Shown: piece after piece, positions 6,618 through 38,369 of the stretch | How the letters are laid out: each line of letters begins with the position of its first letter | How positions within the stretch are numbered: position 1 is the first letter of the stretch | NCBI GenBank assembly: GCA_017436325.1 | Contig: JAFSDI010000001.1 | Coordinates: 1 to 52,582 of the forward strand | Length of the DNA stretch: 52,582 nt | Source: Alphaproteobacteria bacterium | Lineage (GTDB): Bacteria; Pseudomonadota; Alphaproteobacteria; Rs-D84 | Direction of reading: 5' to 3' | Position numbers and translations under genes: made by a program | The notes under the pieces: generated by a model | Databases searched by the model: none | What the model saw: only the letters and a program-made list of their open reading frames with translations | Told to the model about the DNA's origin: nothing

Positions 6618-6944
6618 TTATGCCTCTGGTCTTGTTAGAGATTCATTCTCATAATTCTCTACGCCTTCCCAACGATATGTCACATTACCTCCCTCTAACT
6701 CAACAACCAGAATAAACTTCCCGTCTACATTCACTTGTTCACGCGGGTCTGGAATTGCAGATTCTGCTAACTCCACTGCTCTGTCTGCTGTTTCCTTTAC
6801 CGCCGCCAATGCATCAGCCAAATTTGTAAACCCATCTGGCACTACACCAATTTTTTCATCAAAGAATCCACGCGAAATAATCGATGCACCTGCTGTACCA
6901 GCTGCTATAAATCCCAATACTGTTGTAAAAAGTAACTTTTTCAT
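6618..6944 (-). CDS. Small secreted protein of the SRGFF family
   Basis: 108 residues. The ATG at 6944 is chosen over an upstream GTG (6953) because the GTG is part of the ribosome site AAAGGGTG. A signal peptide (MKKLLFTTVLGFIAAGTAGA) precedes the mature start SIISRGFFDEKIG. A short heptad-like helix (NLADALAAVKETADRAVELA) leads to the C-terminal beta module (DGKFILVVELEGGNVTYRWEGVE). The same three parts occur in the proteins at 37297-38049 and 51867-52582, which have a larger variable middle, so this is a short family member. It lies 30 bases downstream of the terminator of a structured leader RNA. Function unknown; surface exposure or export is inferred from the signal peptide. Confidence 0.8.
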   Translation of the reverse strand: MKKLLFTTVLGFIAAGTAGASIISRGFFDEKIGVVPDGFTNLADALAAVKETADRAVELAESAIPDPREQVNVDGKFILVVELEGGNVTYRWEGVENYENESLTRPEA

Positions 6945-6973: not shown

Positions 6974-7005
6974 AAACAAAAACCGCCACAGGAATTCTTA
7001 GCGGT
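6974..7005 (-). terminator. Terminator ending leader RNA copy 1
   Basis: Minus-strand stem ACCGC/GCGGT (7001-7005, 6982-6986) followed by TTTTTGTTTT. It lies only 30 bases before the start codon of the secreted gene, so transcripts must pass it to express that gene. Confidence 0.8.
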
Positions 7006-7212
7006 CGGGGAGTTAGCAAATCACGTCATTACTGATTCTGTCGCTTTTAGTGATAAATCACCTGTTGTATAACGACCAGCCCCCCGACCTATCTCAGTCA
7101 GGGCACAATAGAATACGATGCAAATACGAAAAAGTCGGATTACGACGCACAACATATTTGCACCGAATGACGAAGGCCTGCTACAGCCCCGAAACCAATT
7201 CCCATCGGTTTC
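6974..7212 (-). ncRNA. Structured leader RNA, class 1 copy 1
   Basis: Homologous to 38071-38336. Read on the minus strand from a likely start near 7212 it forms: P1 (7207-7212 with 7191-7196, GAAACC/GGUUUC, loop with GGGAAUU), a conserved 16-base element (7175-7190), a 12-bp P3 (7154-7165 with 7116-7127) enclosing a conserved GUCGUAAUCCGAC hairpin (7134-7146), P4 (7096-7103 with 7082-7089), P5 (7073-7079 with 7038-7043, holding a GUGAU/AUCAC hairpin), and a terminator (stem 7001-7005 with 6982-6986 and U-run to 6974). The segment 7003-7012 (CUCCCCGACC) can pair instead with the P4 3' arm and overlaps the terminator stem. No ORF here has a ribosome site. Confidence 0.75.
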
Positions 7213-7219
7213 AAAACAT

Positions 7220-7248
7220 ATTATACAAATATCACCTATTCTTTGCAA
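7220..7248 (-). promoter_or_regulatory. Promoter of leader RNA copy 1
   Basis: TTGCAA (7243-7248) and a consensus TATAAT (7220-7225) are 17 bases apart on the minus strand. The spacing to the first paired base of P1 is the same as in copy 2, which supports both promoter and RNA start. Confidence 0.8.
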
Positions 7249-37270: not shown

Positions 37271-37298
37271 AATCCCCCTTTCGGGGGATTGATTTTTT
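37271..37298 (+). terminator. Terminator of the trxA-dksA unit
   Basis: Stem AATCCCCC/GGGGGATT (37271-37278 with 37283-37290), loop TTTC, then GATTTTTTA. Confidence 0.9.
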
Positions 37299-38049
37299 AT
37301 TCCATTTCAGCACGATCGATTGATTCCCATGCATACGTCGTTTGATCTCCTTCTTTAACCGCGGTTAATACGTACTTTCCATTACTGGCGGTGGCAGACA
37401 GATTATTTATCTTGCCGTCAATCTTGGCATCAACAGCGCGCAATGCATCCGCTAAATTGTCATAGCCCGCGATTTTGTTTTCCGAATCTATTGTCCCGAT
37501 TTTAGCGGCATTCTCGTCAACTTTGGTTGTTAAAGTTGGCAAACCATATGCTTTTCTGCCGTTCATGTCGTTAGTGCCATAAAACAATAAATCATAAAAA
37601 CTGAACCGCGATCCACAATTATTGAAAAGCAATTCGTAATCATTAAATATATCGGTAAGTCTGACAGGCCAGTGTAAATCTTCTCTTGAAGGGGATAACA
37701 AGCGACTGACAATTCCATAAAATCCAGGAAAGTCATAATCCGTATAATTTAATTCTATAAATTCTGATATAGACTTTGGCATTCTGCTATTAACATTATT
37801 CTTATAATACTCCTCACTAAAAAGCAAAGTTATATCATCACCTAAAGCATCCCTATACGTCAATTCTGCCGGTGTTCCCACAATTTCTAACAATGTGGTT
37901 AGGTCGCTTTGGTTTGCTTTTAAATCAAGGGCAGTGTTTGTGGCATAATTCTCCATCGCTTCTTCAAAAAATCCACGTGATACAATCGATGCGGTTGCAG
38001 CGCCCGTGAAGGTTATACCAAGAATAGTACTAACTAAAAATTTTTTCAT
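37297..38049 (-). CDS. Secreted SRGFF-family protein
   Basis: 250 residues. Signal peptide MKKFLVSTILGITFTGAATA, mature start SIVSRGFFEEAMENYAT, a variable middle of about 150 residues with an inserted region rich in Tyr and Leu, a heptad-like helix (NLADALRAVDAKIDGKI) and the C-terminal beta module NGKYVLTAVKEGDQTTYAWES. Paralogue of 51867-52582: both ends match closely in protein sequence, but synonymous sites differ freely in the shared C-terminus, so protein-level selection, not recent conversion, keeps the ends alike. AGGAG eight bases before the ATG. Behind the second class 1 leader RNA. Role unknown. Confidence 0.8.
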   Translation of the reverse strand: MKKFLVSTILGITFTGAATASIVSRGFFEEAMENYATNTALDLKANQSDLTTLLEIVGTPAELTYRDALGDDITLLFSEEYYKNNVNSRMPKSISEFIELNYTDYDFPGFYGIVSRLLSPSREDLHWPVRLTDIFNDYELLFNNCGSRFSFYDLLFYGTNDMNGRKAYGLPTLTTKVDENAAKIGTIDSENKIAGYDNLADALRAVDAKIDGKINNLSATASNGKYVLTAVKEGDQTTYAWESIDRAEME

Positions 38050-38070: not shown

Positions 38071-38102
38071 ATTAAAACACCGCAAAGAGAATTCTATGCG
38101 GT
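38071..38102 (-). terminator. Terminator ending leader RNA copy 2
   Basis: Minus strand ACCGCA/TGCGGT stem followed by GTTTTAATTT. The 5' arm overlaps the CCCCGACC segment that can pair with the P4 3' arm instead. Confidence 0.75.
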
Positions 38103-38336
38103 CGGGGAGTTAGCAAATCATAACATCAATGACTCTGCCCGTTTTTAGTGCAAAACACCTGTTATATACCGGACAGCCCCCCGACTTTTTTCTTAGTCAG
38201 GGACAAATCAAGATAACGATGCAAATATGGAAAAACACTTGTCGGATTACGACACACTTAATATATGCCTTTGATATATTTGCATCGGATGTTATAGGCC
38301 TGCTACAGCCCCGAATCCAATTCCCACTGGACTCAC
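38071..38336 (-). ncRNA. Structured leader RNA, class 1 copy 2
   Basis: Homologue of 6974-7212. On the minus strand: P1 GAGUCCA/UGGAUUC (38328-38334 with 38313-38319), the identical 16-base element (38297-38312), P3 12 bp (38276-38287 with 38217-38228) around the GUCGUAAUCCGAC hairpin (38241-38253), P4 (38195-38202 with 38179-38186), P5 CUGUCCG/CGGGCAG (38170-38176 with 38135-38141), then a GAUUUGCUAACUCCCCGACC segment conserved in both copies and the terminator (38097-38102 with 38079-38084, U-rich run to 38071). Stem sequences differ from copy 1 while pairing is kept. The gene start is 22 bases beyond the terminator. Confidence 0.78.
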
Positions 38337-38341
38337 AAAAC

Positions 38342-38369
38342 ATTATAATAAAAATTGAAAATTAATCAA
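38342..38369 (-). promoter_or_regulatory. Promoter of leader RNA copy 2
   Basis: Minus strand TTGATT (38364-38369), 16 bases, TATAAT (38342-38347). The predicted start is within two bases of the start of P1. Confidence 0.8.

Follow-up and report, generated by a model that had tools for sequence, protein, structure and literature searches.

The 52,582-nt stretch of DNA analysed here (the window) carries two related leader RNAs, which we read as members of a branch of C4-type antisense-RNA precursors that has diverged and multiplied, kin to phage C4 through a common layout. Their membership of a structured RNA family is virtually certain. The best explanation as a whole, which we consider reasonably probable, is a precursor leader of the C4/sRNA-Xcc1 type, most likely attenuating genes for exported proteins.

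Both copies and all their elements lie on the minus strand, copy 1 from 38336 to 38074 (263 nt modelled) and copy 2 from 7214 to 6977 (238 nt modelled). They aligned over their full length with 72% identity (blastn; alignment A2), and their fold energies were far below those of shuffled sequences (z −5.36 and −4.45 for copies 1 and 2, respectively). A covariance model of the window-type RNA (R1, with rough E-values) matched them with 228.7 and 218.0 bits. An earlier note on this DNA had proposed two homologous leader RNAs whose stems change in sequence while keeping their pairing. The alignment bears out the homology, and the stem changes listed in the note are present.

Each copy is preceded by a promoter scoring 10/12 in a consensus scan, TTGATT-16-TATAAT for copy 1 (38342..38369) and TTGCAA-17-TATAAT for copy 2 (7220..7248). 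The RNA begins with the P1 hairpin (38313..38334 and 7191..7212; fold and helix 1 pair counts), followed by a 5′ pairing strand resembling a1b1 of phage P1. In copy 1 this strand reads GGGG-CUGU-AGC-AGGCCU-AUAACAUC (38288..38312) and complements positions 38104-38127, the 3′ antisense-like strand resembling a′b′, GAUGUUAU-GAUUU-GCU-AACU-CCCC (38104..38127). The corresponding strands of copy 2 are found at 7166..7190 and 7007..7030 (helices 2-4 in both copies). Enclosed between them are three further elements: the P3 hairpin (38217..38287, containing GUCGUAAUCCGAC, and 7117..7165; helix 5 and fold), the P4 hairpin (38179..38202, CCCUGACU/AGUCGGGG, and 7082..7103; helix 6), and P5 with its inner hairpin (38135..38176 and 7038..7079; helix 7). 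The 3′ side of P4 in copy 1 has an alternative pairing with 38100-38107, forming an acceptor-like stem; the alternative partner in copy 2 is at 7003-7010. An intrinsic terminator, stem plus T-run, closes each copy (38071..38102 and 6974..7005; helix 8 and sequence). The gene behind copy 1 (37297..38049) is an ORF of 250 aa with a signal-peptide-like start (..ASIVSRGFFEE..), for which no Pfam family was found, and the gene behind copy 2 (6618..6944) is an ORF of 108 aa (..ASIISRGFFDE..) with no Pfam family above cut-off.

The window belongs to a metagenome-assembled genome (G000) of 1,037,644 bases (1.04 Mb) in 42 contigs, which is 95.8% complete. Searching this genome with copy 1 gave 50 matching pieces, from which ~41 copies were located, 36 of them complete and the window pair among them. 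This number is probably a lower bound, because several contig ends lie in or beside copies. Whole stems recur in otherwise different copies of this genome (L028, L030 and L033; L029, L032, L035 and L037), and their sequences look as though recombination had swapped modules among them.

Across the 36 complete copies, 96.0% of the cells in the 55-pair structure were paired, and pairing fell to 44-46% when the partner was shifted by one column. Two-sided changes numbered 238, compared with a mean of 69 in shuffled alignments, and none of 500 shuffles reached 238, a figure that is not to be read as a probability, because the structure was largely derived from the same alignment and the copies are related. 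Covariation was strongest in two helices that the earlier note had not named and whose sequence differs in nearly every copy while pairing is kept. The NNN triplet, a 3-bp helix, was paired in 36/36 copies (20, 10 and 21 two-sided changes), and the N8 helix (7-8 bp) had two-sided changes at all seven counted pairs. In a cross-family alignment, which was fitted to the covariance model, 92.7% of the cells were paired, with 835 two-sided changes against 244 shuffled. The N8 helix was paired in 99.5% across families, with 25-39 two-sided changes per pair. Pairing was possible in 96.1% of the cells for the acceptor-like stem GGUCGGGG/CCCCGACC and in 93.8% for the P4 hairpin; the two are mutually exclusive, since one strand is common to both. 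In the five copies folded, the full-length RNA preferred the closed P2+P4 form by ~8-13 kcal/mol, so that a change of form would need processing or a partner.

Throughout the genome, each copy has a promoter of its own in front and an intrinsic terminator behind, and lies some tens of bases 5′ of a gene. A −10 hexamer with at least five of six consensus positions precedes P1 in 33/36 copies, mostly 4-6 nt upstream, and the hairpin ACCGC(A)/(U)GCGGU with a T-run is present in nearly all 36. The −10 element before P1 and the terminator end, each described in the earlier note for both copies, recur in most copies of this genome, and together with the pair counts they strongly support the note's picture of a structured RNA with compensatory changes between promoter and terminator. 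A simple terminator scan of the window failed to pick up these hairpins, probably because of their long loop. Downstream of the antisense-like strand the order is terminator hairpin, T-run, ribosome-binding site and gene. The downstream proteins belong to several unrelated families with signal-peptide-like starts, and the distance to the gene is near constant. By a crude hydrophobicity measure, with start codons picked by rule, 35 of 37 downstream proteins had a strongly hydrophobic N-terminus, compared with 18 of 42 window ORFs; genus-wide, 79% of the downstream proteins passed the same measure. No Pfam family scored above cut-off for the downstream proteins tested. One strongly diverged copy (L033:1132-1382, minus strand) lies 5′ of a 119-aa protein which by eye resembles VirB2/TrbC pilin, with no Pfam match, and retains a partial antisense match to the start of its own gene.

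Comparison with Rfam, proposed in the earlier note, gave no family at gathering score in the window copies, and a known family as their identity was rejected, with every score below threshold. The best weak match was sRNA-Xcc1 (RF02221), with 27.0 and 30.5 bits against a gathering score of 53. At E<0.01 the same model matched seven copies elsewhere in or within the window's genome, and it matched relatives at the corresponding place (L138, 44.1 bits, E 1.1e-4; L119, 37.7 bits; L277, 37.6 bits). In the opposite direction, R1 recovered an sRNA-Xcc1 locus (L165) end to end with E 4.4e-5. Homology at the same place was thus found in both search directions, and by sequence comparison the kinship of the two RNAs is well supported. 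Both have the acceptor-like stem, a P5-like stem with AUACAA and a GAUUU..AAC..CCCC 3′ strand, and genomic sRNA-Xcc1 loci also have an upstream complementary strand, present in nearly all of the 30 loci inspected (L158-L187). Unlike the window-type RNA, the Rfam model spans only an 87-nt 3′ domain. The RNAs of the window's genome, at 27-40 bits (cut-off 53), have P1 and a large P3 in addition and carry a terminator at their 3′ end, ahead of the gene; no downstream target copy accompanies the window copies.

sRNA-Xcc1 itself, carried in integron cassettes upstream of symE (PMC12444791), appears to be a C4-type antisense RNA, though Rfam lists it outside the C4 clan. Genes at its loci are often of the antirepressor type and include those for Bro-N, KilA-N, P22_AR and Rha proteins. 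In sRNA-Xcc1 loci of other proteobacteria, an internal terminator-like hairpin was seen between the a1b1-like strand and the C4-like domain.

In phage P1 the annotated order is a1, b1, c4 (77 nt), a2, b2 and icd, and c4-a1b1 is listed as a motif (PMC2864571). The P1 sequence matched both RF01695 (C4) and RF03163 (c4-a1b1). In the window copies RF01695 gave no match up to E 10 and RF03163 gave none, and R1 found only fragments in the immI region of P1 (10.8 bits). Kinship to C4 therefore runs through the layout and sRNA-Xcc1 rather than through a direct match. The window type and the C4 RNAs of P1/P7 share the order promoter, a1b1 strand, C4-like domain and gene, and in both an antisense strand is complementary to the upstream strand and an acceptor-like stem occurs. 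In the window-type RNAs this complementarity of the a1b1-like to the a′b′-like strand is seen in the own-genome and the cross-family helices, and the acceptor-like stem is present and pairable. In contrast to P1 and the sRNA-Xcc1 loci, where a terminator-like hairpin comes before the C4 domain, it comes after this domain in the window type, and no a2b2 target lies where the gene behind the window copies begins. Control of a phage antirepressor operon was not found either: the window's genome has no Bro-N antirepressor gene, and the downstream genes have export-like starts. Acinetobacter baumannii has a large group of C4-like sRNAs, Group 1, which likewise comprises many C4-type RNAs in one genome with a variable specificity region (PMC5320573). 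Those RNAs fit the C4 motif of Rfam and have been described as sRNAs, whereas the window RNAs form another branch and are leaders of genes. The earlier note had inferred a new class, knowing of no described family with these motifs. The RNA is structured, as that note held, and escapes every Rfam threshold, but its 3′ half is recognisably related to sRNA-Xcc1 and it has the a1b1/C4 layout of P1, which makes it a new branch of an RNA type already known and not a class of its own.

Targets in cis were searched for by comparing the antisense strand with the start region of the downstream gene, a test run in several variants with different windows, so that the values given below are per variant and uncorrected. 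At many of the 30 sRNA-Xcc1 loci a second copy lies near the start of the downstream gene, with a run of at least 7 nt in 18 of 30 compared with 14.5% of mismatched pairs, and duplex energies agree with a downstream target (0/5000 permutations). Among 129 distinct copies from the genus of the window's genome, the antisense strand pairs better with the start of its own gene than with the starts of other copies' genes (z −3.36, 8/20000). Only 17 of these 129 ranked in the top 5% (6.5 expected; L094, L041 and L199 are examples), so most genus copies show no cis target. The class-level permutation value was 50/5000; in family f4 the cis target was not significant. The shuffled-antisense control was weak in all groups. 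The window copies have only 6 and 5 nt in common with their own downstream regions and show no cis target. Over the window's genome as a whole, cis antisense targeting was rejected as not significant, whether judged from shared words, from duplex energy or against shuffled antisense strands (303/5000; 5.51 vs 5.43 nt).

The mechanism we propose starts with the leader's own promoter, which would drive an RNA of ~240-265 nt. Its 5′ strand, GGGG-NNN-N8 as in a1b1 of P1, would pair with the 3′ strand, N8′-UGAUUU-NNN′-CCCC as in a′b′. P4 is predicted to carry the 5′ side of the acceptor-like stem, GGUCGGGG, whose alternative partner CCCCGACC lies on the same 3′ strand. Because the P4 strand has this alternative partner, two forms are conceivable, a closed precursor and a C4-like domain, and an enzyme such as RNase P, which processes C4 (PMC5320573), could free the latter. 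In some relatives the antisense strand could pair across the beginning of the downstream gene. In the window's genome the leader would act as an attenuator, keeping genes for exported proteins low unless transcription reads through. Since the intrinsic terminator follows immediately, the downstream gene would be transcribed only by read-through, barring an undetected promoter. With a terminator directly before the gene and the cis target missing, attenuation is the most likely role of the window copies and our best guess, the main rival being antisense action in trans.

According to that rival, the RNAs are trans-acting antisense sRNAs, terminated and possibly trimmed, whose a′b′ strand silences other genes, their location merely reflecting the site of duplication. 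C4 acts on other copies of its target, as established for P1/P7 (PMC5320573), and here the a′b′ strand differs in nearly every copy, the terminator closes the RNA and most copies are without a cis target. Location as a mere duplication site fits poorly with downstream genes of unrelated families, nearly all with export-like starts and at a near-constant distance, as would be expected from control in cis. Hfq was not found in the window's genome, a slight argument against a trans sRNA of the classical kind. We regard action in trans as unlikely, if the most serious of the alternatives. Less probable still is an attenuator of the riboswitch kind, sensing a metabolite or protein, functionally unrelated to C4 and controlling the terminator through alternative folds. 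Such a device would account for the two mutually exclusive stems, both of which are kept, for a terminator directly before the gene whose stem overlaps CCCCGACC, and for conserved loop letters such as UAUACAACAG. Yet the downstream genes share no common pathway across relatives, the RNA is akin in sequence to sRNA-Xcc1, and change is fastest in its long paired strands, which does not resemble a ligand pocket.

It is very improbable that the copies are mainly substrates of recombination, in which a conserved leader lets surface-protein genes swap or be replaced and has little regulatory role. Modules common to otherwise different copies and the many contig ends within copies agree with this explanation, but every copy has two-sided compensatory changes, indicating selection on RNA pairing that DNA homology alone would not need. 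Integron attC sites folding as single-stranded DNA, suggested by the carriage of sRNA-Xcc1 in integron cassettes (PMC12444791) and by the structured, variable stems, were rejected, as the copies are scattered, with promoter and terminator, and the window's genome has no integron integrase above cut-off (weaker recombinase matches occurred in 14/14 control genomes as well).

In the covariance-model search of related genomes that the earlier note had suggested, R1 found the RNA in 34 of 35 genus members, the window's genome included, and matched further families of the order (at most 35 candidates scored per genome). The genus appears to be a gut lineage. With stricter filters and at most 6 candidates scored per genome, 23 of 337 Alphaproteobacteria genomes in a class sample matched at E<=0.001. 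Named genomes among the matches listed in a pattern scan were Rhizobium, Brucella, Paracoccus, Methylobacterium, Nitrobacter, Sphingomonas and others; some Acidobacteriota were also among the matches listed. R1 matched nearly all of the pattern-scan loci examined. Among the phage contigs scanned, nine carried a GC-rich pattern and none the window type.

A broader reading, offered tentatively and with more doubt than the attenuating leader itself, is that an uncatalogued, widespread alphaproteobacterial branch of C4-type RNAs gates accessory genes (exported proteins, surface-sugar enzymes and regulators of conjugation, TraM among them). Within small gut alphaproteobacteria, this branch would have grown into a genome-wide regulon of ~40 surface-protein genes with a private pairing code per leader. 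The analysis joins three separate records: C4, the antisense RNA of phages; sRNA-Xcc1; and an RNA of Alphaproteobacteria that escapes every Rfam threshold despite its presence in Rhizobium, Brucella, Paracoccus and Methylobacterium, among other named genera. Should the leader indeed control its gene, a phage immunity device would have been reused many times for surface proteins and regulators of mobile elements. None of the papers searched dealt with this RNA of Alphaproteobacteria or with a leader RNA of traM.

Several single loci are worth recording. Four Acidobacteriota contigs (L285, L287, L291 and L333) match both the pattern and R1, and their sequences suggest that the RNA has spread beyond Pseudomonadota. 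A GC-rich alphaproteobacterial form lies 5′ of traM in Hoeflea (L331; Prok-TraM, PF09228). In Rhizobium (L344) the GC-rich form precedes a protein near-identical to that of the Hoeflea locus, and the form also occurs on the Agrobacterium vitis plasmid pTiCG78 (L313). The GC-rich form at L277, L307, L312 and other such loci has another conserved hairpin, GCGGGGGCGYACCGC, on its 3′ side and often a small protein behind it, of which a single one was tested and matched PF10074 (RovC_DNA-bd).
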